Shown: one piece after another, positions 30,008-46,814 of the stretch | Layout of the letters: each line of letters begins with the position of its first letter | Numbering within the stretch: the stretch's first letter is position 1 | Assembly (NCBI GenBank): GCA_963575655.1 | Contig: CAUYTY010000217.1 | Span: forward strand, 1-64,000 | Origin: Gammaproteobacteria bacterium | Lineage (GTDB): Bacteria; Pseudomonadota; Gammaproteobacteria; CAIRSR01 | DNA: 64,000 bases | Direction: 5' to 3' | Position numbers and translations under genes: made by a program | Notes under the pieces: generated by a model | What the model saw: only the letters and a program-made list of their open reading frames with translations | Told to the model about the DNA's origin: nothing | The model's database searches: none

Positions 30008-31666
30008 ATGCACTGGATCGCCCCCTCTGAAAAAGATGTAGCCACCACCACGCTGGAAAAACGGCTGTGGGACGCCGCCGATCAGTTCCGCGCCAACTCC
30101 GGGCTCAAGGCACAGGAGTACTCCGGGCCAATCCTTGGTCTCATCTTTTTACGCTTCGCCGAGGTCCGCTTTGCTGTTCAGCGCGCCAAGCTGGAAAAGG
30201 CGGCCTCCTCCTCCCGGCGCGGTTCACGGGTGAACGAGCCGGCGGCTTATCACGCCGAGGGTATCCTGTATCTTTCGGAGGAGGCGCGGTTTGATTTCTT
30301 GCTCAAACAACCCGAGGGGGCGGATATCGGCGCGAGAATTAACGACGCCATGCGCGACATCGAGAATCTTAATTTCCAACTCGATGGTGTCCTGCCCAAA
30401 ACCTATCATCTCTTTACCAGCACCCTCCTCAAGGAACTGCTCAAGAAAATCTCCGAGATTCCCGCTACCGTCGATTACGACGCCTTCGGGCGGATTTATG
30501 AGTATTTCCTTGGTGGGTTTGCCCGTACCGAGGGACAAAAGGGCGGCGAGTTTTACACACCGAGTTGCATCGTTCGCCTGCTGACCGAGGTGATCGAGCC
30601 ATATCACGGGCGCATCCTTGACCCCGCGTGCGGTTCGGGTGGCATGTTTGTCCAGTCCGCGCGTTTCGTGGCGGAACACAAGAAGAATCCCGGCGAGGAG
30701 CTGGCCATTCATGGCGTGGAGAAGACTGACGAAACCGGGCGACTCTGTCGGATGAATCTCGCGGTGCATGGGCTAGAGGGCGAGATTCAGCATGGCGGCC
30801 AAGTCAACAGCTACTACGACGATCCGCACGATGCCACGGGACGCTTTGATTTCGTACTCGCCAATCCGCCCTTCAATGTCAACGCCGTGGACAAGGAGCG
30901 GTTGAAGGATTCTGTTGGGCCGCGCCGCCGTTTTCCTTTTGGCCTGCCGCGCACGGACAACGCGAATTATCTCTGGATTCAGCTTTTCTATTCCGCGCTC
31001 AACGACCATGGCCGTGTCGGGTTTGTCATGGCCAATTCCGCTTCCGATGCTCGCAGTTCCGAGCAGGAAATCCGGCAGAAGCTTATCGAAAGCCGCGCCG
31101 TGGATGTCATGGTCGCCGTTGGCCCCAACATGTTCTACACCGTCACGCTGCCCTGCACGCTGTGGTTTTTCGACAAGGGCAAGGCATCGCTCCCCTCGCC
31201 CTCCGGGAGAGGGGCTGGGGGTGAGGGCGGCAATCGCCGTGATACCGTGTTGTTCATCGATGCCCGCCACATCTACCGACAGGTTGATCGCGCCCACCGC
31301 GACTGGTCACCGGCGCAGATCGGCTTTATCGCCAACCTCGTCCGCCTCTATCGCGGCGAAGCGCTTGATGCCCCGAAAGTTAGCGCTGGCGAGACGATGG
31401 CCAAACTCATCGAAGTTTTTGGCGAAACGTCGATCTATCGTGACGTGCCCGGACTGTGCAAGGCAGCGACGCTGGCCGAGATCGAAGCGCAGGGCTGGTC
31501 GCTCAACCCCGGGCGCTATGTGGGCGTGGCACCGGGCGAAGAGGTGAGCGACGCGGACTTCAAGGTGCAGCTCGAAACGCTCAACGAGGAACTGGAAACC
31601 CTGAATGCCCAGGCACGGGAACTGGAGCAGGTCATCGCCGATAATATTTCACGGCTACTCGAATAA
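30008..31666 (+). CDS. hsdM: type I restriction-modification methyltransferase subunit
   Basis: 552 residues; adenine-N6 methyltransferase of a type I R-M complex. It has the N-terminal helical domain ([20 protein letters not shown]), [14 protein letters not shown], the SAM-binding motif [10 protein letters not shown] (about 205-214), the catalytic NPPF (about 287-290), and a C-terminal coiled coil contacting HsdS ([20 protein letters not shown]). Oddly, residues about 395-409 ([15 protein letters not shown]) derive from a palindromic repeat inserted in frame. The gene is separated from hsdS and hsdR by toxin-antitoxin modules. Confidence 0.92.
31190..31230 (+). repeat. palindromic repeat inside hsdM, in frame
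   Basis: CCCCTCGCCCTCCGGGAGAG followed by GGGCTGGGGGTGAGGGCGG matches intergenic repeat cores such as the one near 29910-29930. It falls between the LWFFDKGK and [13 protein letters not shown] segments, which are normally close together in HsdM. The length keeps the frame open, adding about 13-15 residues on what is likely a surface loop. Confidence 0.7.
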
Positions 31667-31667
31667 A

Positions 31668-31955
31668 ATGAATGCAATCCTCATCCAAAAAATCAAGCGA
31701 CAATATGCACATGGAATCGTGGAAGTGAATATTTGGCAAGTTCCTGGATCGGTGCCGCCATGTCGGCATCATTACAAGTATCGGTTAGTGTATGTAGTAA
31801 ATAATCAGCGTGTGATTGGCTTCGATAACGAACGCGGCAAAGGAGATCATTGGCATTATGAAAATAAAGAATTTTCCTATCAATTCGTTAATGTAGAGAC
31901 ATTGCTTGCGGATTTTTGGAAGGCTTTAGAACTCCATACAGGAGATAAAAAATGA
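31668..31955 (+). CDS. TumE-like (DUF6516) toxin
   Basis: 95 residues with HHYKYRLVYVVNNQRVIGFDNERGKGDH typical of DUF6516, the toxin half of the proposed TumE/TumA module. I chose the ATG at 31668 directly after the hsdM stop. It overlaps the next gene by four bases, which fits a toxin-antitoxin pair. Biochemical activity is not deducible from the sequence. Lower GC than hsdM suggests separate acquisition. Confidence 0.65.
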   Translation: MNAILIQKIKRQYAHGIVEVNIWQVPGSVPPCRHHYKYRLVYVVNNQRVIGFDNERGKGDHWHYENKEFSYQFVNVETLLADFWKALELHTGDKK

Positions 31956-32311
31956 AACTCACGATCAGAATTGCCGAACCATTTGAAACCATGAAAAAGC
32001 GGATGAATTTACATGCTCGGCAAGCGGACGCTGGCCAAAATATTGAGCCACTTTGTGAAATAGGATTTGAAAATATCGCGCAATTTAGCGAAATATTCAC
32101 CACGCAACGCTGGAAACTGGTCGAAATATTAAAAAACAAAGGACCATTCACAATTCATGAACTTGACAAACAGATGAAACGCCATGGCGTTCAGGAAGAT
32201 GTACAGATATTAATGGAATGGATGCTGGTAGAACAGGACGACTCAGGACAAATCTTTATTCCTTGGGACGAAATCGATATACATTGGCCGCTCCTGAAAA
32301 AAGCAGCCTGA
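31952..32311 (+). CDS. TumA-like winged-helix antitoxin/regulator
   Basis: 119 residues. The C-terminal half reads as a winged helix (RWKLVEILKNKGPFTIHELDKQMKRHG, DVQILMEWMLVEQDDSG), like the HVO_A0114/MarR-like DNA-binding partner usually encoded after DUF6516 toxins. The overlapping ATGA start couples it to the toxin gene. It presumably neutralises the toxin and represses the pair, by analogy. Confidence 0.65.
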   Translation: MKLTIRIAEPFETMKKRMNLHARQADAGQNIEPLCEIGFENIAQFSEIFTTQRWKLVEILKNKGPFTIHELDKQMKRHGVQEDVQILMEWMLVEQDDSGQIFIPWDEIDIHWPLLKKAA

Positions 32312-32321
32312 GAATATAGCC

Positions 32322-32609
32322 ATGAACGCACAATTAGAAACTAGAATTATTGAACAACTCCATCAATTAGATGAACGCCGTTTGGGTAAGGTATTGGATT
32401 TCGTCAGGCGTCAACTTCATGAAAAGGAAAAAACCCCGCAATTTGGAAATTGTAAAGGGATGTTGACTATACTAGTTGAAGATAAGAAACATTGTGAGTG
32501 GCCGTTGCTAGACCCTGCCCGCGACTTTCCACGTTTTGCTGGAACAGAACCCATTACTGAAGATGGAGTTGCCTTTCAACGTCATATCCGAGATACCGAA
32601 TGGTCATGA
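32322..32609 (+). CDS. VapB-like antitoxin (DUF2281-like)
   Basis: 95 residues opening LETRIIEQLHQLDERRLGKVLDFVRRQLHEKE, as in DUF2281/VapB-type antitoxins that precede PIN toxins. It ends with four-base overlap on the PIN gene. Probably binds the PIN toxin and the promoter. No ribbon-helix-helix or AbrB fold can be confirmed by eye. Confidence 0.65.
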   Translation: MNAQLETRIIEQLHQLDERRLGKVLDFVRRQLHEKEKTPQFGNCKGMLTILVEDKKHCEWPLLDPARDFPRFAGTEPITEDGVAFQRHIRDTEWS

Positions 32610-32968
32610 AATATCTGCTGGATACCAATATCCTAATTGATATTCACGCAGGCAAGATGTTCCTTGGGGTAAAGGAAGGCCATTACTCCTATTCAATCAT
32701 CAGCGAAATCGAGTTACTTTCCTGGCCAAATATCAAGCCATTGCAAGAACAGGAACTACGCTATCTGTTGGGACATTTCCAGCGTGTGGAGCTAGACGCA
32801 AGCGTGCGTGATGCCTCTATCCATTTGCGCCGTCAACATCGGTTGAAATTGCCGGATGCTGTCATTGCCGCCAGCGCACTCGTCCATGACGCCATCCTGC
32901 TGACCAACGACCAGCGCTTGCTGACGATTCCCAATGTCCGCGCTCACTCTGTTGAGATTAAGCAATGA
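32606..32968 (+). CDS. vapC: VapC-type PIN-domain ribonuclease toxin
   Basis: 120 residues. It starts MKYLLDTNILIDIH with the first catalytic Asp. Conserved acidic residues continue in SIISEIELLSWP, KLPDAVIAASALVHDAILLTNDQRL (the second and third acidic sites). PIN toxins cleave tRNA or other RNAs. All key acids are present, so it looks functional. It follows its antitoxin by ATGA overlap and lies between hsdM and hsdS. Confidence 0.85.
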   Translation: MKYLLDTNILIDIHAGKMFLGVKEGHYSYSIISEIELLSWPNIKPLQEQELRYLLGHFQRVELDASVRDASIHLRRQHRLKLPDAVIAASALVHDAILLTNDQRLLTIPNVRAHSVEIKQ

Positions 32969-33020
32969 TTAATTTCATGACCATCGCCCACAATGTGGCT
33001 GAGATTTTTGAGGTGTGAGG

Positions 33021-34250
33021 ATGGAGAAGTGGCAGCAACATAGCCTTGGAGAATGCCTGACTTTGATGTCGGGTGGAACACCATCGAAAGCCAGAAATGA
33101 TTTCTGGGGCGGTGATATTCCTTGGGTTTCTTGCAAGGACATGAAGACCGAGAGAATTCATGATGCCCAAGACCACCTAACGCCACTTGGTGCCAAAAAT
33201 GGAACAAGGCTTGTTCCTACGAACACAATTCTTTTTGTCGTGCGGGGCATGATTCTGGCCCGCGAGTTCCCCATTGCAATGACAAAGCACCTCGTCGCGT
33301 TCAATCAGGACTTGAAGGCTGCAAAACCTGCTGCCTTTATCGATAACGAGTTCTTATTTCAATGGCTCCGCGCCAACACCTATGAAATTCTTGGTCGCGT
33401 TGATGAAGCTGGGCACGGAACGACGCGCATTCAAACTGATCGTTTGCTGTCGCTCCCGATTTCCGTTCCACCGCTCCCCGTCCAACAACGCATCGCGGGT
33501 ATCCTCTCCGCCTACGACGACCTCATCGAAAACAGCCAGCGGCGCATCAAGATTCTGGAGAAGATGGCGCGTTCCCTCTACCGCGAGTGGTTCGTCCACT
33601 TTCGTTTTCCCGGACATGAGAATGTGCCGCACGTTTCCTCACCACTGGGGGAGATTCCAAGGGGGTGGGAGGTAAAATCCATTCAGCAGTTCGGCACGGT
33701 CATCACGGGAAAGACCCCGAGCAAAGCCAACGCAGATTTCTACGGTGACGACATGCCGTTCGTAAAGACGCCGGACATGCACGGGAATATATTCATCCTC
33801 GGCACGAGTGACTGCCTATCGACGGCCGGCGCAGAATCGCAGGCGAACAAGACGCTGCCCGCCGGTTCAATCTGCGTGAGTTGCATCGGCACGATTGGCG
33901 TTGTCTCCATCACGACCGAGGACTGCCAGACGAATCAGCAAATCAACTCCGTGGTGTTGGCGAACACGATCAGCCGGGAGTTCCTGTTTCTCCGTCTCCA
34001 AGATTCAAAGCAGACGCTGGAGAATCTCGGCGCGAACGGCGCGACGATGGGCAACGTTAACAAGGGCAAGTTTGAGGCGATGGAAATTATCTGCCCCTCG
34101 GATGACGTGCTCGCCCATTATCATCGGCTCGTTAAGCCGATATTCTCAGAGATTCTCAGCCTGTTCCGCCAAATCCAAAACCTCCGCCGCACCCGCGACC
34201 TTCTCCTCCCCCGCCTGCTGTCTGGCCAGATCGACGTGGGAAGTTCGTGA
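33021..34250 (+). CDS. hsdS: type I restriction-modification specificity subunit
   Basis: 409 residues with two target recognition domains (about 5-150 and 215-380), each followed by a conserved helix (LPVQQRIAGILSAYDDLIENSQRRIKILEKMARSLY and LFRQIQNLRRTRDLLLPRLLSGQIDV) that spaces the two half-sites. The first TRD opens GECLTLMSGGTPSKARNDFW and the second GTVITGKTPSKANADFYGDD, showing internal duplication. It defines the bipartite DNA site. ATG at 33021 after GTGTGAGG. Confidence 0.92.
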   Translation: MEKWQQHSLGECLTLMSGGTPSKARNDFWGGDIPWVSCKDMKTERIHDAQDHLTPLGAKNGTRLVPTNTILFVVRGMILAREFPIAMTKHLVAFNQDLKAAKPAAFIDNEFLFQWLRANTYEILGRVDEAGHGTTRIQTDRLLSLPISVPPLPVQQRIAGILSAYDDLIENSQRRIKILEKMARSLYREWFVHFRFPGHENVPHVSSPLGEIPRGWEVKSIQQFGTVITGKTPSKANADFYGDDMPFVKTPDMHGNIFILGTSDCLSTAGAESQANKTLPAGSICVSCIGTIGVVSITTEDCQTNQQINSVVLANTISREFLFLRLQDSKQTLENLGANGATMGNVNKGKFEAMEIICPSDDVLAHYHRLVKPIFSEILSLFRQIQNLRRTRDLLLPRLLSGQIDVGSS

Positions 34251-34266
34251 CCCATGGGAGCGTTAA

Positions 34267-34824
34267 ATGCCGATTCCTGATTTTGACCACAACCTTGTGC
34301 TACCACCGCATCTTGGCGAACCAACAAAACCTGAGCACTTATCACCGTATCCATGTACAACGGTGGATTTATGTCGGCGGTTCGGAAATACGCCTGACCG
34401 ACGGTTATTACTCAAAAAATTTTTGGATTTCCGAAAACGGTTAAACGATGAAGGACTTATTAATGGTTTTCATTGGCTTGACGGAAGTTTCTTGGAAGAT
34501 ATTGAAACGAGAGAAAACCGATCACCTAAGGATATCGACGTGGTAACGATTTATTGGGGGTATCATCTTGATTTTCAATCCAACCTAATAATAAAGTTTC
34601 CATAGTTTGCAAACCCAACCCTTTCAAAATCAACTTATTCATTAGATCATTATCCATTTGATGCCGGATATAGCCAAATATTGACCTTGGAACAAGCACG
34701 TTATTGGATCTTGCTCTTTTCGCACAATCGGCTTGGGGTGTGGAAGGGAATGCTAAAAATTGACTTGAATACCCCGAAAGAAGATGAATTAGCCCGCCAA
34801 CAACTGGGAGAAACCAAGCTATGA
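34267..34824 (+). pseudogene. DUF6932-like gene with one in-frame amber codon
   Basis: Opens PIPDFDHNLVLPPHLGEPTK and has WLDGSFLEDIETRENRSPKDIDVVTIYWG, a G-S...D-x-D arrangement like a nucleotidyltransferase core in DUF6932 proteins. A TAG at 34603-34605 interrupts it, but the same frame continues with FANPTLSKSTYSLDHYPFDA, RYWILLFSHNRLGVWKGML and IDLNTP to a stop at 34824, all conserved-looking. A single base change could explain the stop. It overlaps the next gene by four bases (ATGA), so translation of the partner may be coupled to it. Confidence 0.65.
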
Positions 34825-35768
34825 GTATGCGAACTCAGCGGGACTTCCTAAAAATACAACTGCTAGAGATTCAAAGAGTAAAGGAACTGGTTGCTGACCA
34901 TCCAATTATGTCGATCTCATTCAGGGAACAAGAACAAGCAATCATCGAACAACTCGCCGTTTTGCCTATTGTAGCCAAGGAGGCAAAGGTAATTCTGCTT
35001 TTCTCTGGTGATCCTGTTCATGGTTCACTCGGTATTGATGCGATTTTTACCGCGCATGTCTTGGAACCTTTCCAAAATATGGTGATGGCTGATTATGCGG
35101 ATCGCTGGCATGGCGTGGTTGGAAGTCGAGGTCGTCATCGTGGAGAAGAAGTTTCTCGCCTTTTGCTGACCGGATTACCTCATGGTTCGTTCGGGTTGGA
35201 ATTGAGCCGGGCTAATACTACAACCGATGATTTATTTGAAGAAGACCAGCTTGCGGACACACTGAGCCATATCACAAAACTGGTCGAGTCCTCTGGGAAA
35301 AGCGATGAGGACTTCTCCACGGAACTTGATCAGACCGCGCCACGGGTCATCCAAAATTTGAAGCAGTTCTTGGAAATTATTATGAAAGGAAAATCTGGAC
35401 TTACTTTAGTAAGTGGTAACTTTCGATGCTCAATGAATCAACATCAGCTTAGTGAAGCCTTTAATCGCGTGGCGGGAACAACGACAAATGATGAAATAGT
35501 CGAACTTTCAGGTATCTTAAAAGGAGTTTTGTTGGAATCCTGGAAGTTTGATTTTCTGACAGATGATAAGGTGAGGATTGCCGGCAAGATTGATGATGAT
35601 TTAACCGAGGACGAGGTTATAGCTATGAACACTATTTTTTTCAATAATCGGTGCCTGGCAACCATATTGAAGACAACCGTATTATTCAAAAATGGCCGCG
35701 TCCGTACCACCCATATACTCAAGAAAATTGCGGCGGTAGTTGACCAGCGCGTCGGCACGACCGTTTAA
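34821..35768 (+). CDS. unknown protein paired with the DUF6932-like gene
   Basis: 315 residues, not recognised. There is a helical N-terminus (LKIQLLEIQRVKELV, SFREQEQAIIEQLAVLP), a beta-rich middle with VILLFSGDPVHGSLGIDAIFTAHVLEPF, and a C-terminal part (KVRIAGKIDDDLTEDEV). Coupled by ATGA to the upstream DUF6932-like frame. The last 28 or so codons overlap, in antisense, a PIN-domain relic, so the C-terminus (VVDQRVGTTV) may not be native. Could be the partner of a nucleotidyltransferase-based module; no function assigned. Confidence 0.55.
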   Translation: MSMRTQRDFLKIQLLEIQRVKELVADHPIMSISFREQEQAIIEQLAVLPIVAKEAKVILLFSGDPVHGSLGIDAIFTAHVLEPFQNMVMADYADRWHGVVGSRGRHRGEEVSRLLLTGLPHGSFGLELSRANTTTDDLFEEDQLADTLSHITKLVESSGKSDEDFSTELDQTAPRVIQNLKQFLEIIMKGKSGLTLVSGNFRCSMNQHQLSEAFNRVAGTTTNDEIVELSGILKGVLLESWKFDFLTDDKVRIAGKIDDDLTEDEVIAMNTIFFNNRCLATILKTTVLFKNGRVRTTHILKKIAAVVDQRVGTTV

Positions 35769-35920
35769 CGCGGCTTCCAGAACCATCTCGTCGGCTGGAT
35801 CGCGCAGTTGCGGCCGCCACAGGTAATACAGATGCACCGGCTCGACGAACAAACACAAGGCGTCGAGAAAGGCTTGAGTCTGCGCTACGCCGCGCCCGCT
35901 GGTCAGATCGACGTGGCTGT
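35682..35920 (-). pseudogene. PIN-domain toxin relic
   Basis: Minus-strand translation gives SGRGVAQTQAFLDALCLFVE, then PVHLYYLWRPQLRDPADEMV and LEAALNGRADALVNY, the C-terminal half of a common PIN-family toxin; DPADEMVLE holds catalytic acids. No start codon or N-terminal Asp region is found, and the end after NYRRNF diverges. It is a fragment overlapping, in antisense, the 3' end of the preceding gene. Confidence 0.65.
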
Positions 35921-35923
35921 CAT

Positions 35924-35952
35924 CTGACTGTTTCGTTTATTTCGTTTATAAT
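35924..35952 (+). promoter_or_regulatory. promoter with tandem repeat for the antitoxin-PIN pair
   Basis: CTGACT (35924-35929), 17 bases, then TATAAT (35947-35952): a good sigma-70 promoter 40 bases upstream of the antitoxin start. A direct repeat TTTCGTTTAT TTCGTTTATA fills the spacer and -10 region, a plausible operator for autoregulation by the helix-turn-helix antitoxin. Confidence 0.6.
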
Positions 35953-35991
35953 AGGTTTTGCTCCAGATTCGATGAAACAGTGAGGGATGCC

Positions 35992-36444
35992 ATGAATGCC
36001 GTAAAGCTCGCCCATATACCAACACCACAAGATATTGAAGAAGCAAGGGATTCCAGCCGGACCCTATCAAAATACGCTCATGCTAACCGGGTGCGGATGT
36101 CTCTGCGGGCCAGCAATGGAGAGTCGGATGATTTGATCTTGCCAGGTCATGTACTTCAGATTTTGTTGGGTGTGCTGGCGGAGATGGCGAAGGGTAATGC
36201 CATCAATCTAATACCGATTCACCAGGAAATCAGCACGCAAGAAGCAGCGGATCTGCTCAATATCAGCCGACCTTTTCTGGTGGGTTTGCTGGAAAAGGGC
36301 GAGATGCCGTTCCGCAAGGTCGGTTCACATCGCCGTATTTTTTTCAAGGATGTGCTGGACTACAAGGAACGCATCGACGCGCAACGGAACCAGGCCCTAA
36401 ACGAACTGACGGCACTCTCGCAGGAAGAACAGATGGGGTATTAA
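35992..36444 (+). CDS. antitoxin with excisionase-type helix-turn-helix
   Basis: 150 residues. The N-terminal part (MNAVKLAHIPTPQDIEEARD, SRTLSKYAHANRV) is typical of antitoxins of PIN toxins. The C-terminal half has an excisionase/MerR-like DNA-binding motif (ISTQEAADLLNISRPFLVGLLEKGEMPFRKVGSHRR). Start at ATG 35992 rather than GTG 35980. It precedes the PIN gene by two bases. Presumably represses the promoter at 35924. Confidence 0.75.
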   Translation: MNAVKLAHIPTPQDIEEARDSSRTLSKYAHANRVRMSLRASNGESDDLILPGHVLQILLGVLAEMAKGNAINLIPIHQEISTQEAADLLNISRPFLVGLLEKGEMPFRKVGSHRRIFFKDVLDYKERIDAQRNQALNELTALSQEEQMGY

Positions 36445-36446
36445 AC

Positions 36447-37013
36447 ATGGGCAAATTTTCAGTTATCTAGGATGCCTGTGTTCTCTACCCAGCGCCACTA
36501 CGTGATTGTCTGGTGCGTTTGGCATTGACCGATCTCTTCAATGCACATTGGACTGATGACATCCATGCGGAATGGATGGGCGCATTACTGAGAGAAGGCA
36601 AATTCTCAGAGGAAAAGTTGCTCCGCGTTCGTGATCTGATGGATGCCCATGTACGCGACGCCAAAGTCACGGGTTATGAGTTATTGATCAATAATTTACA
36701 GCTTCCCGACCCTAATGACAGGCATGTGCTGGCTGCCGCCATACGTTGTAACGCCGACGCAATCGTGACTTTTAATTTGAAAGACTTTCCATCTGACGCA
36801 TTGGAGCCTTTCAATATAGATGTCATCCACCCGGACGATTTTATTTATTATCAGATCGAGTTAGCTCCGGCGCTATGTTGCCAAGCCTTGCGTGATCAAC
36901 GACTGGCATTAAAAAGACCAAGTTTGTCCGTTGATGAATTTCTATCCGTATTGTTAAAACAACAATTGCCACAAACGATCTCCAAGCTCCGCGAGTTCAT
37001 CGAATTCCTTTAA
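36447..37013 (+). pseudogene. PIN-domain toxin with an in-frame amber codon
   Basis: Frame from ATG 36447 reads MGKFSVI, then TAG (36468-36470), then DACVLYPAPLRDCLVRLALT and on to the stop at 37013. In homologues this residue is usually Tyr (VxYDACVLYP), so one base change made the stop. The rest is intact: DIHAEWM, LPDPNDRHVLAAAIRCNADAIVTFNLKDFP with the acidic residues. A shorter product could start at GTG 36513 but would lose the first catalytic Asp. Likely an inactivated toxin with its antitoxin kept. Confidence 0.75.
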
Positions 37014-37018
37014 GCCCA

Positions 37019-40000
37019 ATGACCCACCCCTACACCGAAAGCCAACTGGTCGAACAGCCCGCTATTGAGTTATTCGCGGCGCTGGGCTGGCAAACGTTCG
37101 CAGCGGGAGACGAGGCTTTCGGGAAGGGAGGCATCCTGTCCCGCGAGACGAGCGGCGAGGTGGTCTTGGTGGAGCGCTTGCGCACCGCCTTGGTGCGCTT
37201 GAATCCTGCCCTGCCGGGGGAAGCCATTACCACCGCCGTGGACGAATTGACCCGTGACCGTTCGGCGATGAGCCTTGCGGCGGCCAACCGGGAGACCTAC
37301 CTCTTGCTCAAGGAAGGCCTCCAGGTTGCCGTGCCGGATCGGCGTCATGGCGGACAGAAGATCGAGCGGTTGCGGGTGTTCGATTGGGAACGCGCGGAAA
37401 ACAACGAGTTCCTACTGATTAGCCAGTTCAGTGTCACCGGCGTGCTGTATACCTGCCGTCCGGATTTGGTGGGATTCGTGAATGGCCTGCCGGTGGTGGT
37501 CATTGAACTGAAAAAGCCCGGCGTTCCCACGCGTACCGCCTTCGACGAGAACCTCAAGCACTACCAGCAACAGATCCCGCAACTCTTTTGGTTCAACGCA
37601 CTGCTCATCGCCAGCAACGGCACGGACAGCCGCGTTGGCTCGCTCACCGCCGATTGGGAGCGGTTTTTCGAGTGGAAGCGCATCGAACGCGAGGACGAGC
37701 CGCGCCGGGTATCGCTGGAGGTGATGATCCGGGGAACGTGCGACAAGACCCGGCTGCTCGACCTGCTGGAGAACTTCACCCTGTTTTCGGAACACAAGGC
37801 GGGGCTGGTGAAAATCATCGGGCAGAATCACCAGTTCCTGGGGGTGAACAACGCCATTGCCTCGATGCTCGCGGCGCGCCAGTCCGGCCATGGCCGAGGC
37901 GGGGTGTTCTGGCAGACCCAAGGCAGCGGCAAGAGCTTTTCGATGGTGTTCTTCGCGCAAAAGGTCTTGCGGAAGTTGCCGGGCAACTGGACGTTCGTGA
38001 TCGCGACCGACCGCGTCGAACTGGACGACCAGATCGCCAAGACCTTCAAGGCGTGCGGCGCGGTTAGCGCGGCCGAGGGCGACACCTGCCATGCCACGAG
38101 CGGCGCGCACCTGCGGGAGTTGTTACGCGGCAATCATCGCTACGTCTTCACGCTCATCCACAAGTTCCAGACCCAGGAGATGCTTTGCGACCGGCCCGAC
38201 GTGATTGTGCTCTCCGACGAGGCGCACCGCAGCCAATACGACACCCTGGCCGTGAACATGCGCGCCGCCTTGCCCAAGGCGCTGTTCCTGGCCTTCACCG
38301 GCACCCCGCTGATCGCCGGAGAGGAGCGGACCAAGGAGGTGTTCGGCGCTTACGTCTCCATTTACGACTTCCAGCAATCCGTCGAGGACGGGGCTACCGT
38401 TCCGTTGTTCTACGAGAACCGCACGCCGGAATTGCGGCTGGTGAATCCAGACTTGAACGAGGATATTTACCGGCTGGTCGAGGAGGCGGAACTTGACTCG
38501 GAACAGGAAGCCAAGCTGGAGCGGGAACTAGGGCGGCAGTACCACATCCTCACCCGCGACGACCGGCTGGAAAGCGTGGCGCGGGACATCGTGCGGCATT
38601 TCCTTGGGCGCGGCTTCATCGGCAAGGCGATGGTGGTTGCCATCGACAAGGCGACCGCGCTCAGGATGCACGACAAGGTGCGGAAGCACTGGGCGGCGGA
38701 GACCCAACGGGTGCGGGAGGAATTGGGGCGTCATATTCTCCCCCGCGAGATGAGAGAGGAGCTTCAAGAGCGTCTGCAATTGCTACAGACCACCGACATG
38801 GCGCTCATTGTATCGCCCGGCCAAAACGAGGTAGAGCAGATGAAAAAACTCGGCCTCGATATTGGGCAGCACCGGCAGCGGATGAAGGATTCCGATCCAG
38901 GACTGGATGAAAGATTCAAGGACAGCAACGATCCCTTGCGGATCGTGTTTCTCTGCGCCATGTGGCTGACCGGTTTCGACGCGCCAAGCTGTTCCACGGT
39001 GTATCTCGACAAGCCGATGCGCAATCACACGTTGATGCAGACCATCGCGCGGGCCAACCGGGTGTTTCCCGGCAAGCACAGCGGCGTGATCGTGGATTAC
39101 GCCAATGTCTTTCTGTCCCTCGAAAAAGCGCTGGCCATCTACGGCAAGGGGAAAGGGGGAGAGAATCCCGTCAAGAATAAACAACAACTCGTTGCCGAGT
39201 TGCGCGATGCCGTCGAGAAGGCGACGGCGTTCTGCGCAAGTCAGCGGGTCATGCTCGGCGCTATCGAACAATTGCCGACGGGAGATTTGGAACGATTGAA
39301 TCTCGTGAATGACGCGGTGGATGCACTGATCTCTCCCGACCCGTTACGACGCGAGTTTCTGGGGCATGAGCGCCTCGTCGTGACGCTCTACCATGCGGTG
39401 AAGCCGGAACCGGTGGTATTGGCGTTTTTTGCCCGCATTGCCTGCCTATCCGCCATTGCGGATGCCATCCGCGCCAAACTGAATCCAGGCCCGGCGGACA
39501 TTTCCGCGGTGATGGCGAGCATCAATCAATTACTGGATGCCTCGATCACCGGCGTGGATATGCCCACCGAATCGGCCAGAGCGATCGATTTATCGAAGAT
39601 TGACTTCGAGGCGCTTGATCGGCGTTTCAAGAAATCCAGGCACAAGAATACGGATTTGGAGGTTCTCAAGGCCGCCATTCGCGCGAAACTTGAGGAGATG
39701 ATCCGGGTAAACAGGACGCGCATTGATTTTCTGGAAAAATTCGAAGCGTTGCTTGGATCCTACAACTCTGGCAGCCGCAACATTGATGATTTATTCGAGG
39801 AGCTATTGCAGCTCAGCCGTACCTTGAGCGAGGAACAGCATCGTCACATCCGCGAAAACATGAGCGAGGAAGAATTGGTCATTTTCGATATTCTGACCCG
39901 CCCTGTCCCCGAATTAAGCAGTGAGGAACGTGTGGAAGTCAAGAAAATTGCCCGTGAACTTCTGGAAAAGATTAAACAGCTACTCGTTATCAACTGGCGT

Positions 40001-40150
40001 CAAAAATCGGCAGCCCGTGCGAGGCTCAGGCTCGTTATCGAGAATACGCTGGATGAAGGCTTGCCAAGGGCTTACTCGCCACCACTGTATCAACAGAAGT
40101 GTGGCACGTTATTCGAGCATTTCTATGAGCATTACGCGGAGGCGGCTTAG
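37019..40150 (+). CDS. hsdR: type I restriction endonuclease/translocase subunit
   Basis: 1043 residues. Nuclease motif PDLVGFVNGLPVVVIELKKP (Asp near 148, E-x-K near 162-164), then SF2 helicase motifs: Walker A QGSGKS (about 300-305), DEAH (about 400-403), FTGTPL, and motif VI MQTIARANRV. A helical C-terminal region binds HsdM. It translocates DNA and cleaves far from unmodified sites. All key motifs are intact, so the R-M system appears functional in spite of accessory insertions between its genes. Confidence 0.93.
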   Translation: MTHPYTESQLVEQPAIELFAALGWQTFAAGDEAFGKGGILSRETSGEVVLVERLRTALVRLNPALPGEAITTAVDELTRDRSAMSLAAANRETYLLLKEGLQVAVPDRRHGGQKIERLRVFDWERAENNEFLLISQFSVTGVLYTCRPDLVGFVNGLPVVVIELKKPGVPTRTAFDENLKHYQQQIPQLFWFNALLIASNGTDSRVGSLTADWERFFEWKRIEREDEPRRVSLEVMIRGTCDKTRLLDLLENFTLFSEHKAGLVKIIGQNHQFLGVNNAIASMLAARQSGHGRGGVFWQTQGSGKSFSMVFFAQKVLRKLPGNWTFVIATDRVELDDQIAKTFKACGAVSAAEGDTCHATSGAHLRELLRGNHRYVFTLIHKFQTQEMLCDRPDVIVLSDEAHRSQYDTLAVNMRAALPKALFLAFTGTPLIAGEERTKEVFGAYVSIYDFQQSVEDGATVPLFYENRTPELRLVNPDLNEDIYRLVEEAELDSEQEAKLERELGRQYHILTRDDRLESVARDIVRHFLGRGFIGKAMVVAIDKATALRMHDKVRKHWAAETQRVREELGRHILPREMREELQERLQLLQTTDMALIVSPGQNEVEQMKKLGLDIGQHRQRMKDSDPGLDERFKDSNDPLRIVFLCAMWLTGFDAPSCSTVYLDKPMRNHTLMQTIARANRVFPGKHSGVIVDYANVFLSLEKALAIYGKGKGGENPVKNKQQLVAELRDAVEKATAFCASQRVMLGAIEQLPTGDLERLNLVNDAVDALISPDPLRREFLGHERLVVTLYHAVKPEPVVLAFFARIACLSAIADAIRAKLNPGPADISAVMASINQLLDASITGVDMPTESARAIDLSKIDFEALDRRFKKSRHKNTDLEVLKAAIRAKLEEMIRVNRTRIDFLEKFEALLGSYNSGSRNIDDLFEELLQLSRTLSEEQHRHIRENMSEEELVIFDILTRPVPELSSEERVEVKKIARELLEKIKQLLVINWRQKSAARARLRLVIENTLDEGLPRAYSPPLYQQKCGTLFEHFYEHYAEAA

Positions 40151-40207: not shown

Positions 40208-40381
40208 ATTAGACATTATCGGAAACCCAAAACCTCACCCCCCGCCCCCCTCTCCTTAACAGGAGAGGGGGAGATTTTTTGCCTGTTCCGTCCAGGAGTT
40301 AAGCATAACAACGGAATAATTCTCCCCCTCTCCTGTTAAGGAGAGGGGGTTGGGGGGTGAGGTTTCCGATAAGGTCTATTA
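40208..40381. repeat. MITE-like element with TAGACCTTATCGGAAACC ends
   Basis: About 174 bases. The left end is ATTAGACATTATCGGAAACC and the right end GGTTTCCGATAAGGTCTATT, with TA at both outer edges. The inside is a large inverted repeat of CCTCACCCCCC and CCCCTCTCCTTAACAGGAG with its complement. There is no coding frame. Shares only its ends with the copy at 29743. Confidence 0.8.
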
Positions 40382-40522: not shown

Positions 40523-40777
40523 ATGGGCATCGATAGTGTAGTTTTGTATTCATATGAAACCATGTTTGGTTCAGTTATTAAGAATCAAAGAATGATCTAT
40601 TTGACGCAGCACGCTTATTTAGCAGGATCCAGTGAGAATTCTTGCTACCAAGCGGCGGCGGTTGACTCCGACGGAAATAATTACCGGGTAACTTGGATTC
40701 CGTACCCTAATTATGCGAATATTGCAGACAAAAATAAACGTTTCGATAGAAACGAATATCAGGTGGTTGAGCTGTAA
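40523..40777 (+). CDS. small hypothetical protein upstream of hydrogenase genes
   Basis: 84 residues, GGAG eight bases before the ATG. No signal peptide or membrane helix. Polar and Tyr/Asn-rich (SVVLYSYETMFGSVIK, YRVTWIPYPNYANIADKNKR). I do not recognise it. It ends 33 bases before the hydrogenase large subunit and may be its first co-transcribed gene; a possible promoter (TTGACC, 17 bases, TAATTG) lies upstream around 40487-40515. Confidence 0.55.
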   Translation: MGIDSVVLYSYETMFGSVIKNQRMIYLTQHAYLAGSSENSCYQAAAVDSDGNNYRVTWIPYPNYANIADKNKRFDRNEYQVVEL

Positions 40778-40810: not shown

Positions 40811-42361
40811 ATGACCAAGCACGTTGTTGTTGATCCGATGACTCGTATCGAGGGTCACCTCCGTTTTGTTACTCGCATCAAGGATCAGATAGTCACCGAC
40901 GCCCACTGTACTGGCGATATGTTCCGCGGCATTGAAAAGGCATTAATCGGACACGATGCCCGCGTCGCCCAACAGGTAACACAGCGGGTGTGTGGAGTGT
41001 GTCCCAATGGACACGCTGAGGCCGCCTCCCTAGCCTTGGAAAATGCAATGGGCCTTAAGCCTAATGCCAACGGCCAACGCTTGCGCAATCTTATTGTTGG
41101 TTCCTACCAATTGCAGGATTACTTGCTGCACTTCTATACCCTGTGCGCCTTAGATTTTATTGATATTGCTGCCGTATTGAATTACCAAGGTAGCGATGCT
41201 GCTCTACTCAAGGTTCGCGATTGGGTTGCCGGGGAGACGAAGAGCGCCAAGGTATTTCCCGCCGCACCATTTCTGCCACGCTACGAGGCAGCCTACAGCA
41301 CTAATCAGGAACTCAATTTCAGCGCCATTCGTCACTATCTTCAGGCGCTGCCGGTAATGGCCAACCTTCACAAGATGGTGGCCCTATTTGGCGCCAAGGC
41401 CCCGCACCCGGTGGCTATTGAGGCGGGTGGTGTCACCACGATGCCGACTCTGGAAAAGATTACCCAATTTCGTTCTTGGCTGAAGGGGGCCGCCGCTTTT
41501 ATTCGCGGACCTTTTCGCGACGATGTAGTGGCGGTGGCCCAAGCCTTTCCTAGTTACTTTAAGGAGGGGCGGGGCTACGGCAATTTTCTTTCCTATCCGT
41601 TTCTCCCCGACGTGAATGGTGAGCATCACAGCTTTGTGGGCGGCGTCACCATTGGCGGAAAGTACAGCCCACTGGATATCAACAAAATCACCGAAGATAC
41701 GCTCTATTCCTACTACAAGGACAGCCCGGATCGGAACGTAAAGCCACTGAGTAGCACCATCCTCACTCCCATTGATTGGAACGAATATCAAGCGGAGCGG
41801 AAAAGAACTGATGGCAAATACAGTTGGACGCGGTCACCGCGCTACGGCGGTGAGGTAATGGAGGTGGGACCCATGGCGCGAGTGGTAAATACCTACCACG
41901 CGGGGACCAATCCACAGCTCACCTCGCTGGTGGACGGATTCAATCAAGCGCTGGGGGTCACCCTGGAGGACTACAACTCGGTGATGGGCCGTCATCTGGC
42001 CCGACTGGTCAACGCCCTGCTGATTCTGGAACGGGTGGAGCGCGACATCGACGAGCTAGAGCCCGGCGTACTCGGCTTCGTGGAGCGTGAAGTACCCCGT
42101 AATGCCCGTGGTGTTGGACTCACCGAGGCCACCCGAGGCGCCCTCGGCCATTGGATCGAGACCGACGACAAGGGTTATATCCGCAACTATGAGCTAATCG
42201 TCCCCACCACCTGGAACATCTCACCGCGTGACGCAAGCGGCAGACCCGGCGCGGTAGAGCGGATGCTAATCGGCACCCATATCAGCGACCCGGAAAATCC
42301 CATCGAGCTGGCCCGCATTGTTCGTTCCGCAGACCCCTGCATTGCCTGCTCCGTCCACTAA
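40811..42361 (+). CDS. [NiFe]-hydrogenase large subunit without C-terminal extension
   Basis: 516 residues; holds the Ni-Fe active site. It opens with VVVDPMTRIEGHLR. The N-terminal metal motif is RVCGVCPNGH (Cys 61, Cys 64), with MFRGIEKALIGHD before it. The C-terminal motif is DPCIACSVH (Cys 510, Cys 513), and the stop follows His 516 directly. Nearly all periplasmic uptake hydrogenases are made with a C-terminal peptide that an endopeptidase removes after this His; sensory group 2b enzymes lack it. The large subunit precedes the small one, the reverse of usual order. No hyp maturation genes or protease are in the window. Confidence 0.92.
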   Translation: MTKHVVVDPMTRIEGHLRFVTRIKDQIVTDAHCTGDMFRGIEKALIGHDARVAQQVTQRVCGVCPNGHAEAASLALENAMGLKPNANGQRLRNLIVGSYQLQDYLLHFYTLCALDFIDIAAVLNYQGSDAALLKVRDWVAGETKSAKVFPAAPFLPRYEAAYSTNQELNFSAIRHYLQALPVMANLHKMVALFGAKAPHPVAIEAGGVTTMPTLEKITQFRSWLKGAAAFIRGPFRDDVVAVAQAFPSYFKEGRGYGNFLSYPFLPDVNGEHHSFVGGVTIGGKYSPLDINKITEDTLYSYYKDSPDRNVKPLSSTILTPIDWNEYQAERKRTDGKYSWTRSPRYGGEVMEVGPMARVVNTYHAGTNPQLTSLVDGFNQALGVTLEDYNSVMGRHLARLVNALLILERVERDIDELEPGVLGFVEREVPRNARGVGLTEATRGALGHWIETDDKGYIRNYELIVPTTWNISPRDASGRPGAVERMLIGTHISDPENPIELARIVRSADPCIACSVH

Positions 42362-42373
42362 AGAAACGCCGCC

Positions 42374-43300
42374 ATGAATCCCTCCCGTCGCGAATTCCTC
42401 CAACGCTTATGGCAGGTGATCGTTGCTACCGGCGCCTCCCAGTTTTTTAGCTTTGAGGAACTGCTGGCCGCTCCACTAGCCTCTAACCGACCCAAGGTCC
42501 TGTGGCTGCACGGTACCTCCTGCTCCGGTTGTTCGACCTCCTTCCTCGACATTGAACAGGTATCGGTGCCGGAGATCCTTACAGAGTTCGTAGACCTGGT
42601 ATTCCACCCGGATATCTCCCTGGCCACCGGTGAACAGGCAATGCAGATACTCGAACACATGGCCAGCAAGGAGGAGGGTTTCATCTTCGTGTTAGAGGGC
42701 GGCATCCCCGTGGAAATGCCGCACGCCTGCATCATGGGCGAACGACCGATGACAGAATGGGTGGACCGTATGGCCCGTCGTGCCGGAGTGGTGGTGGCGG
42801 CGGGTACCTGCGCCGCTTTGGGCGGCGTCCCGCGCATGAATGGTACCGTCACCGGTTCGATGACCTTACGTGAGTTCCTGATCCACCAGGGAATTAAAAA
42901 ACCGCTGGTGGCATTGCCCAACTGTCCGATGAAACCCGAACATTTCCTCTACGTTCTGCTGCACCAACTCAAGATGGGACGACTGCCCGAATTGGATGAA
43001 TTGCTCCGGCCCCACAAATTTTTCAATCACACCATTCACGAGCGCTGTATCTATTACGCAGATTTCCAGGAGCGACGCTACGCCGAACGCATTGGTGACG
43101 AGGGTTGTCTGCTTAAACTCGGCTGCCAGGGACCAGTAACTCGCAACGACTGCATGCTCTTTGGCCACAACAACAATACCAATACCTGCATCCGCGCCGG
43201 TCATCCGTGCGTGGGTTGTGCTGGTGAGCCTTTCCCGCGCCAGATTATGTTCCACGCCTACGGTGACCGTCGGGCAATCCAGAAAGATTTCTCGATCTAG
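42374..43300 (+). CDS. [NiFe]-hydrogenase small subunit with Tat signal
   Basis: 308 residues. A twin-arginine signal ([20 protein letters not shown]) indicates folded export to the periplasm with the large subunit. Proximal cluster ligands: Cys 50, 53, 146, 184 ([28 protein letters not shown]). Distal: His 222, Cys 225, 245, 251. Medial: Cys 260, 272, 279, 282 ([15 protein letters not shown]); Cys 272 stands where common uptake enzymes have Pro, predicting [4Fe-4S] rather than [3Fe-4S]. There is no C-terminal membrane anchor, and no cytochrome b partner follows; instead a chemoreceptor does. Confidence 0.9.
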
Positions 43301-43314
43301 GAAAACCATGTGCT

Positions 43315-45129
43315 ATGTACAATGCGCACGCCCCGAGGCAATTCGATAGTAATGTAGTTAAGGTCAGTCACTCTATTTTGTTTCGTACCTTGCTATTTTT
43401 GATAGCAGGCGTTTTGGTGGTGGCTGCTTTAGTGTTGGTGGTCGCTTGGGGCTATTTGGATGCCCAGGCGCATCGACGCGCCCACAGTACCGGGGATGGT
43501 TTACTTACCACCTCGATCAAAAACACGCAGGAATCCATCAATAAGGGACAACGTCACAGCTTCCAACGCGCTATCGATGATTTTGCCCAACTTGATGGGG
43601 TGATCGATGTTGCTCTATTTTCTCGTTTCAACTTCATGGTGTATCGCTCTGGGCTGGTCAGTGTTGGTATGCCGTTTGTACATGATGAGAAAGGGCAGCT
43701 CAAGCGCAATCCTAATGAAGAACGATTTATTAAGAGCAATGGGCGTTTTCAGCGTGAGGATTGGAATCTGCGCGACGCAATTGATCAGCCAGCGGCGCAA
43801 AAGCACGTTCAGGAAAAAAAGACCGCTGGCGAATTATGTAGCAATTGCCACTACCCAATGCCCGAAGGCGCCGATTTCAATACGCCCTCACGGCGATTTA
43901 TCTACGAGAGCCCGGACTACACGGATTTCTATTACGCTATGCCGGTGGAGGGCGAGTGTGTGGTCTGCCATACCCATTGGCGCGCGGGGGAGAGTAGCGG
44001 TTATCTGCGGGTGCGCCTGAATACTCGCCCTTTTACTCATCAGCGCAACGAGACTCTACTAGGAATGGCTGGGGCCATTGTCGGGGTATTAGCGCCAGTA
44101 ATTTTGATTGTGGTGCTGATCTTTCGTTTCGTGGTGTTTAAGCCGCTTGGTATATTGGACGCCAATATCACCGACCTTACCCGTGGCGAGGGCGACCTAA
44201 CCCATCGTCTGGTAGTACGGCAGCACAACGAGATGGGACGAATCGCCGGGAGCCTCAACGGTTTCATCGAAAAGGTGCAAACCATCGTAATTGCCATCAA
44301 GGAACGTATGGCCCCTTTGGGGGGACATGCCGACGAATTATTTCAGCGTAGTGAGATCCTGTTGAATAACAGCACGCGCATCGCGGATGCCCTCGGCCAG
44401 ATCAGTACCGAAACCGGACACCTGCGCGACTCGGCCGGGCAAGTAACATCATCGGTGGAGGAAGTCCACGCTAGTCTGAATTGGGTGGTGCGGACCGTAA
44501 CCACGGGTGAACAGATCTCCCGCGACAACCGCCGCCTAAGCCAGGAGGCCATGACCCGCATGGACACCTTCGGGGGCAAGATGGCGAACGTAACCACCAC
44601 CTCCCGCGAAGTGGTGAATCTGCTCGACCAGATCAAACGCATTGCCGATCAGACCAATCTATTGGCCCTCAATGCGGCGATTGAAGCCGCACGGGCTGGT
44701 GAATCAGGTCGAGGCTTTGCGGTAGTAGCGGAGGAGGTACGTACGCTGGCCGGTAAGACCACCACGCTGACCGACACCATCGACCGCTCCTTGGCCTCGT
44801 TTACCAGCGAGATTGGCAGTGCCGAATCGATCATGCGTGAGACTACCGAGGTTATGCACCAAGTTTCCTCGGTCTCGACCCAAGGTGAGCAGGAATTGGC
44901 CAGTGCCGTGCAGCGTATCCACGCCCTGGAACAGGCATTTGCCAGCGTGCAGACCGCCACCAATGAGCAGCACCAAATCACCAGCAAGATGGTGCAACGC
45001 ATTGACAATACCACCGCCCAAGCCACCGACATCCGCGACATCAGCAACGCCATTGCCAATCTCGCCCGTAGCGTACAGGAGGCGGTGAATAGAGTGGAAA
45101 CGGAGACCTCCAAATTTCATACTGGCTAA
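43315..45129 (+). CDS. methyl-accepting chemotaxis protein with periplasmic dihaem c sensor
   Basis: 604 residues. TM1 is about 22-47, the periplasmic domain about 48-247, TM2 about 248-275, then HAMP (about 275-330) and the cytoplasmic signalling hairpin with the invariant tip [20 protein letters not shown]. The periplasmic domain carries two CxxCH haem c motifs: CSNCH (175-179) and CVVCH (215-219). Haem-c chemoreceptors sense redox state or gases. The gene starts 14 bases after the hydrogenase small subunit, so it is almost certainly co-transcribed. The hydrogenase could reduce these haems when hydrogen is present. No C-terminal CheR-binding pentapeptide is seen. Confidence 0.9.
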
Positions 45130-45180
45130 AAGAATCCCGAAGGGTTGCAAAACCAAGATGGTTTCCGGTCAGATACAAAT
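44858..45180 (+). repeat. duplicated segment, first copy (3' end of chemoreceptor)
   Basis: This stretch, starting at ACCAAGTTTCCTCGGTCTCG and running about 50 bases past the chemoreceptor stop, is repeated with about 5% change at 46469-46791. The copies are in direct orientation with an IS91-type relic and a DUF29 gene between them. Confidence 0.85.
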
Positions 45181-45640
45181 CATCAATGATCATATCCATT
45201 TTCATTGCGTGGTGTTCGATGGCGTATTTGACGTGTCAACGGATGGGAATACCATTGTGCGTTTTCACGAAGCGGCAATCACTAATGCCGATATTGAGAA
45301 GGTCCAGGAAACAGTACGGAAACGTATTTTTCGTACCTTTGTCAGACGTGGATTCATCGATCGTAGTGACACCAGGGAAATGCTCTCATGGGAGCATGGG
45401 GCGGGTTTTCACTTCATGCCTCGGTTCGGATCGAGGAGAATAATCGAAAAGGGCTTGAGCGACTTTTACGTTATTGACAATGGGGTAAAACACGATATTC
45501 TCTCCATTTCATTGACAAGTCAAGGAGGTAAATGTCGCATAATCATTATGCAAACAAACAATTATAAAAAACATAAAGATGTCTTATCTTTAACGGGTCT
45601 GACCCCTTATTTCTTTTTATTTTCAAATTTAACTCGTTGA
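45158..45640 (+). pseudogene. IS91-type (Y2) transposase fragment
   Basis: From about 45190: NDHIHFHCVVFDGVF, then IEKVQETVRKRIFRTFVRRG and REMLSWEHGAGFHF, the IS91-family rolling-circle transposase core with its His-x-His metal motif. The frame shifts near 45427, after which another frame gives RIEENNRKGLERLLRY followed by a stop. The catalytic Tyr region is absent. The first residues of the open frame come from the duplicated chemoreceptor flank, showing that the fragment joined there later. Confidence 0.8.
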
Positions 45641-45806: not shown

Positions 45807-46268
45807 ATGGCGGCGTTGTCGTGTATTGACGAACTGACAAACCTTTACGAAGTCGATTACGACGCTTGGCTTCAACGTAATTTAGAATTGCTGCGTCAGT
45901 TCCGTTTCCCCGAATTAGATGTTGAACATCTAATCGAGGAGATGGAAGACTTGGGTAGAAAAGATCGTGGCGAATTGATCAGCCGATTGGTAATTCTGAT
46001 TGCCCACTTACTCAAATGGCAATTCCAACCGGCGCATCGTTCCTCCAGTTGGCGTGGCTCCATTGCCGAGCAGCGGGTAAGGGTGACACGGCAACTGAAA
46101 TTAAGCCCAAGTCTTCATTCATTCCTGCCGCAAGCCATACGTGAAGCTTACAATGATGCTGTGGAATTGGCGTGCGAGGAAACTGGACTATCGCTGGATG
46201 CATTTCCGCGAGACTGTCCCTATCTACCCACGCAACTATTAGACAAAGGATTCTGGTCGGAGCTATAA
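45807..46268 (+). CDS. DUF29 family protein
   Basis: 153 residues: LYEVDYDAWLQRNLELLRQF, LDVEHLIEEMEDLGRKDRGELISRLVILIAHLLKWQFQP, then FPRDCPYLPTQLLDKGFW. This is a full-length DUF29 protein, a helical family of unknown function common in cyanobacteria and Gammaproteobacteria and often multicopy near mobile DNA. It lies between the two direct copies of the chemoreceptor end, so it probably arrived with the rearrangement. Confidence 0.85.
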   Translation: MAALSCIDELTNLYEVDYDAWLQRNLELLRQFRFPELDVEHLIEEMEDLGRKDRGELISRLVILIAHLLKWQFQPAHRSSSWRGSIAEQRVRVTRQLKLSPSLHSFLPQAIREAYNDAVELACEETGLSLDAFPRDCPYLPTQLLDKGFWSEL

Positions 46269-46468
46269 AATTTCCTACAGCAACAATCGAAAAATTGAGA
46301 AGGACAAAATCGGTTTATGAGCCAAGATAATGAGGCATTTTCCCGTATTGTTATAAAATATGGATTCAAACTCGAAGTGCAACTCTTGAATTAACAGTTG
46401 GTTGCGTGAGCAAGGTACTCTAGTTTCTGTATCAGACGAATCTTCGCGGCATCAAGGGACCATAAAAA

Positions 46469-46740
46469 ACCAAGTTTCCTCGGTCTCGACCCAAGGTGGG
46501 CAGGAATTGGCCAGCGCCGTGCAGCGTATCCACGCGCTGGAACAGGCATTTGCCAGCGTACAGACCGCCACCAACGAACAGTACCAAATCACCAGCAAGA
46601 TGGTGCAGCGCATTGACAATACCACCGCCCAAGCCGCCAATATCCGCGACATCAGCAACGCCATTGCCAATCTCGCACGTAGCGTACAGGAGGCGGTGAA
46701 TAGAGTGAAAACGGAGACCTCTAAATTTCATACTGGCTAA
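46469..46740 (+). pseudogene. second copy of the chemoreceptor 3' end
   Basis: Encodes the last 85 or so residues of the chemoreceptor ([20 protein letters not shown] to ETSKFHTG) with a few substitutions. No membrane, HAMP or signalling-tip sequence precedes it. An ATG-less extension to 46402 opens the frame but adds unrelated residues. It cannot function as a receptor. Confidence 0.85.
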
Positions 46741-46814
46741 AAGAACCCCGAAGGATTGCAAAATCAAGACGGTTTTCGACCAGACACAAACTATAATTTA
46801 TTGTGGAGCACACC

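Follow-up and report, generated by a model that had tools for sequence, protein, structure and literature searches.

The window, which is the whole 64,000-nucleotide stretch of gammaproteobacterial DNA analysed here, contains an operon encoding a [NiFe] hydrogenase that lacks a C-terminal extension, its Tat-type small subunit and a methyl-accepting chemotaxis protein (MCP) with two c-type haem motifs (Table 1). Because the operon is conserved and its chemoreceptor has two CxxCH motifs, the tail-less hydrogenase is probably a sensory enzyme. We consider it quite likely that the locus is a dedicated H2-sensing chemoreceptor, in which electrons from the hydrogenase would reduce the receptor haems and steer motility. 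The observations behind this reading are the gene order, the missing tail, the Tat motif, the conserved CxxCH motifs, the co-occurrence of enzyme and receptor, the CheA-type kinases and a tailed hydrogenase in the same genome.

Table 1. Coordinates of the hydrogenase and chemoreceptor features in the window
Feature	Position	Strand	Evidence
[NiFe] hydrogenase large subunit, 516 aa, no C-terminal extension	40811..42361	+	PF00374, E 5.8e-134; ends on H516
C-terminal metal-binding motif DPCIACSVH and stop codon TAA	42332..42361	+	sequence
Hydrogenase small subunit (308 aa) with ligands for three predicted [4Fe-4S] clusters and without an apparent C-terminal membrane anchor	42374..43300	+	PF14720, PF01058; alignment
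Small-subunit Tat signal region (SRREFLQ)	42374..42472	+	sequence; twin Arg in all six
Methyl-accepting chemotaxis protein, 604 aa, TM-periplasmic domain-TM-HAMP-like-signalling domain	43315..45129	+	PF00015, E 4.4e-31; HAMP sub-threshold; model
First c-type haem motif CSNCH, residues 175-179	43837..43851	+	C, C, H invariant in receptors of both classes
Second c-type haem motif CVVCH, residues 215-219	43957..43971	+	C, C, H invariant, with W222, G225, G229
MCP signalling domain (CheA-coupling part), residues 405-563	44527..45003	+	PF00015

The first-pass annotation had claimed that the large subunit ends at the metal-binding His with no cleavable peptide, and this was confirmed by the end of the open reading frame (ORF) and by the relatives. 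The ORF (40811-42361, + strand) closes with ARIVRSADPCIACSVH, followed by TAA. The [NiFe] cysteines are C61, C64, C510 and C513, the final residue is H516, and the Pfam hydrogenase model aligned up to its final position (508/508). An assembly error or frameshift at 42359 had been raised as a possible cause, but it is not one, because five complete relatives in other genomes share the same end. Close homologues with an extension had also been anticipated; G116, G336, SKYL01000273, G424 and G494 are all tail-less. The large-subunit stop and the small-subunit start are separated by 12 nt in the window, 13 nt in G116, 15 nt in G336 and 28 nt in L004, and therefore there is no room in these four genomes for a hidden 15-codon tail, which rules out a tail concealed beyond the stop. 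Between the window and G116, the large-subunit gene gave pN 0.10 and pS 0.75, and purifying selection acts on it as judged from this one pair of sequences. Removal of a C-terminal extension by a HyaD/HupD-type protease is the usual trait of group 1 enzymes and not a strict definition of the group. The tail length here was 0 in all six genomes.

Natural tail-less [NiFe] hydrogenases have been listed for groups 2b, 2d, 4c, 4e and 4g only (PMC7294309), and a second list is the same minus 4g (PMC12134894). Groups 2b and 2d are H2-sensing (PMC7294309). Neither list has an entry from group 1, in agreement with the earlier claim that tail absence is known for sensory 2b and some energy-converting enzymes and is unexpected with Tat export. 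The effects of removing a tail by genetic means have also been described: in Escherichia coli Hyd-2, the cofactor-free enzyme can then be exported (Thomas et al. 2015, as cited in PMC12134894), and R. eutropha MBH still matures without its tail at a lower yield (PMC7294309). The combination of a missing tail with a Tat small subunit had been called unusual, and it is real; the likely reason for it, the chemoreceptor operon, had been missed.

The small subunit had been assigned to the Tat-exported type, which is borne out by the SRREFLQ motif in the 42374-43300 gene and by a twin Arg common to all six small subunits in the alignment. Where classical [3Fe-4S] enzymes have Pro, all six small subunits have Cys, as in NiFeSe enzymes. 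With Cys at the medial-cluster position, three [4Fe-4S] clusters are therefore predicted. A maximum-likelihood phylogeny of 21 large-subunit sequences placed the tail-less lineage inside group 1, among the 1a-1e references and apart from HoxC/HupV (support 97/98). Both the group 1 branch and the Tat signal on the small subunit are features of that group. The nearest reference was the Desulfovibrio NiFeSe enzyme HysA (support 88/88), a placement that is not firm because it depends on a single reference. Desulfovibrio HysAB ([NiFeSe], group 1a-type) shares the Tat small subunit and the Cys at the medial-cluster position, and the NCBIfam NiFeSe models score best here. In contrast, one PDB chain of HysA (5jsu_B) runs 15 residues beyond the His, the match ending at 492 of 507, while the window enzyme has Cys rather than Sec and a large-small-MCP gene order. 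HoxBC/HupUV (group 2b) are tail-less like the window enzyme and have an H2-sensing role. However, they have no Tat signal, a small-large gene order, a histidine kinase partner and a separate branch. Their large subunits also have Ile/Phe at the positions where the window enzyme has Val/Leu, as in catalytic enzymes; we take these positions to be the gas-channel bottleneck. Membership in HupUV/HoxBC was ruled out by the tree, the Tat signal and the gas-channel residues.

The genome searches covered samples drawn from one phylum. The order of tail-less large subunit, Tat small subunit and MCP was found in the window, G116, G336, L004, G424 and G494, which belong to two classes. The large subunit of G116, from the same genus as the window, is 82% identical and ends in DPCMACSIH. 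Those of G336, from another family, and of L004, the Halorhodospira-labelled MAG SKYL01000273, are each 67% identical and tail-less. Those of G424 and G494 are 44-45% identical and end in DPCLACAVH. The gene order is thus kept across an enzyme divergence of about 55%. The Methylomonas-labelled relative L005 is not among the five complete relatives; its contig stops before the large-subunit C-terminus. When 398 genomes of the phylum were scanned for DPCxxCxxH-stop, four true hydrogenases were found: the window enzyme, a HupUV-like pair in G531, and G424 and G494, both of which turned out to have the large-small-MCP order. The G531 pair has the small-large order, and its HupU, used as a control, has no Tat motif, unlike the window small subunit. 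In a sample of 369 gammaproteobacterial genomes, three contained the large subunit (E<=1e-100); these same three, and no others, matched the sensor-domain model, with the two genes adjacent each time. This co-occurrence is descriptive and not a probability because two of the three share a genus. The sensor domain was never seen without the tail-less hydrogenase in the 369 genomes. The large subunit was not found at E<=1e-95 in 337 genomes of the class of G531, a set without a positive control. Among the matches listed from plasmid records, hydrogenases occurred only at about 34% identity or less. As named from translations, hypA, hypB and hypF lie upstream of the operon in G336, with a HupE-like ORF downstream, and hypB, hypD, hypE and hypF lie upstream in G494. 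CheA-type kinases were present in every genome tested.

The five searchable operon genomes (the window genome, G116, G336, G424 and G494) each carry another [NiFe] large subunit besides the tail-less one. The tails that were read measured 15 aa in the window genome and G116 (Isp-type) and in G424, 8 aa in the second enzyme of G116 and in G494, and 9 aa in G336. On contig C186 of the window genome (L007 6542-12512), an Isp-type cluster encodes a protease, a Tat small subunit, a membrane subunit, an Fe-S subunit and the large subunit with the 15-aa tail. A check for the absence of a cognate protease had been proposed at first pass. The genome does contain one HycI/HyaD-type protease, so that absence did not hold; the gene is the only one of its type there and lies inside the operon of the tailed enzyme on C186, not beside the tail-less one. 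The proteases of G116, G336 and G424 likewise adjoin tailed enzymes. In G494, the sole HycI-like protease ORF (L031 about 4659-4946, - strand) lies between hypF and the tail-less large-subunit gene, on the opposite strand. Because G494 is 78% complete and also encodes a tailed hydrogenase, the protease may serve that second enzyme.

Receptor identity between the two classes is only 23-25%, but the two CxxCH motifs and residues W222, G225 and G229 do not vary. Both motifs lie between the two predicted membrane helices, in the periplasmic part (the long helices of the model). AlphaFold2 models of the sensor domain, built with five sequences, reached a mean pLDDT of 68 and 60. They place a PAS/Cache-like sheet between two long helices, with the CxxCH motifs in or beside low-confidence loops. 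The best fold neighbours were WalK, CitA and chemoreceptor sensor domains (4ywz_B, Z 12.7, rmsd 2.8 over 132 residues), and the second model gave fold matches at Z of about 9. A Pfam search with the sensor domain found no named domain, with cytochrome c7/MtrC-like matches below threshold only. When PDB sequences were searched with a profile, only weak similarity to MtrC appeared, near the CxxCH motifs. No relatives of the sensor domain were found in the viral contigs searched.

A second, fragmentary copy of the 3' end of the chemoreceptor gene (ORF 46402-46740) lies 1.6 kb downstream; the duplication is a 300-nt direct repeat that is 94% identical between 44858-45157 and 46469-46768. The stretch separating the repeat copies contains an ORF (45158-45640) that fits the Y2_Tnp transposase model, followed by a DUF29 gene (45807-46268). 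Directly before the operon, at 30008-40150, ORFs resembling the M, S and R genes of type I restriction-modification, as read from translations, are interspersed with small ORFs, some of them PIN-like. These restriction-like genes are separated from the hydrogenase operon by a region with a 51-nt inverted repeat (40230-40365; 92% complementary, 34-nt loop), which may be a mobile intergenic element. Immediately before the hydrogenase, an 84-aa ORF (40523-40777) matched nothing in Pfam or NCBIfam. An Rfam search of the window found no element.

Haem-bearing chemoreceptors and hydrogenase-linked chemoreceptors have been described separately. DcrA, GSU0582 and GSU0935 are haem c redox chemoreceptors (PMC8396549) and resemble the window receptor in having a haem c motif in a periplasmic MCP sensor domain and in the redox sensing proposed for it. 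They differ in having one haem c per sensor domain and no dedicated hydrogenase, whereas the window receptor carries a pair of CxxCH motifs and does not significantly match any named domain. GSU0582 and GSU0935 were not among the listed fold matches of the middling-confidence sensor model, an absence compatible with kinship. [FeFe] group C2 enzymes were proposed by HydDB as MCP-linked H2 sensors (PMC5037454); they are alike in that a hydrogenase is proposed to pass H2 signals to MCPs. C2 is an unrelated enzyme family, whereas the window enzyme is [NiFe] and exported and its receptor has two CxxCH motifs. Membership in C2 was rejected, as its catalytic domain is absent and only the [NiFe] family PF00374 matches. 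A 2025 neighbourhood survey recorded an 87-member MCP-domain cluster near [NiFe] large subunits and made no comment on it (PMC12727194). In the open-licence literature, we found no description of an operon that pairs an exported [NiFe] hydrogenase with a c-type haem chemoreceptor, and no [NiFe] receptor for movement toward H2. The evidence for the novelty of the [NiFe] hydrogenase-chemoreceptor operon is limited. H2-directed movement of microbes has already been discussed.

For the proposed sensor, we infer that haem is attached, that the enzyme touches its receptor (an assumption based on gene order), that electrons flow between them, and that a signal and a behaviour follow. Both hydrogenase subunits would mature in the cytoplasm, presumably via the Hyp factors of the cell, with no tail-and-protease checkpoint, and would be exported together through the Tat signal of the small subunit. 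The periplasmic dimer would oxidise H2, and electrons would pass along the three predicted [4Fe-4S] clusters and on to the PAS/Cache-like domain of the receptor with its two predicted c-type haems. A redox-driven change in this domain, of the kind described for GSU0582 and GSU0935 (PMC8396549), could then alter CheA signalling, which would bias swimming in response to H2. On balance, and with less assurance than we have in the function of the locus itself, these enzymes more likely than not form a new [NiFe] class of periplasmic H2 sensors that mature and pass Tat without a C-terminal checkpoint and send electrons into a di-haem chemoreceptor.

The catalytic-type Val/Leu gas channel would fit signalling by electron output, but it also counts against the sensor reading, as it may mark an efficient catalyst with an energy role. 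A respiratory uptake hydrogenase could feed soluble periplasmic cytochromes, with the receptor reading the redox state of the pool (energy taxis) and H2 being one of several inputs. Besides the gas channel, the group 1 placement near periplasmic uptake enzymes, the small subunit without a membrane anchor and the operon without a cytochrome b gene would suit such an enzyme. We nevertheless judge it unlikely, since the receptor is the only partner kept across two classes, its sensor domain is never without this enzyme in the 369 genomes and a second, tailed hydrogenase in the genome is already paired with a membrane subunit. Other points counted against the sensor reading are the protease ORF beside the tail-less gene in G494, the gap between the small-subunit and receptor genes, which is 14 nt in the window versus about 280-300 nt in G116 and G424, and the modest confidence of the sensor models at the CxxCH motifs.

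Signalling could also be conformational, as proposed for HoxBC-type sensors, with the H2-loaded enzyme docking on the receptor and the CxxCH haems doing another job, such as oxygen or NO sensing with a veto on the response. There are sensory tail-less precedents in groups 2b and 2d (PMC7294309) and c-type haem oxygen/redox sensors (PMC8396549), and an NO-binding c-type haem sensor is reported (PMC12889525). The catalytic-type gas channel and the complete set of [4Fe-4S] relay ligands fit electron output better, which makes docking improbable. It is very hard to believe that the genes are chance neighbours, with a receptor for something unrelated and a tail loss that has no tie to sensing. That idea was already disfavoured by the same order in six genomes of two classes at the enzyme divergence given above, and the identical distribution in 369 genomes also speaks against it.

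The operon is a concrete candidate for a system in which an enzyme supplies a receptor with electrons drawn from a gas. It is also relevant to hydrogenase maturation, as a natural exported tail-less lineage stands beside a tailed enzyme in the same cell. If these enzymes do form such a new class of sensors, the operon would provide a molecular basis for H2 taxis and a case of sensory tail loss separate from group 2b.
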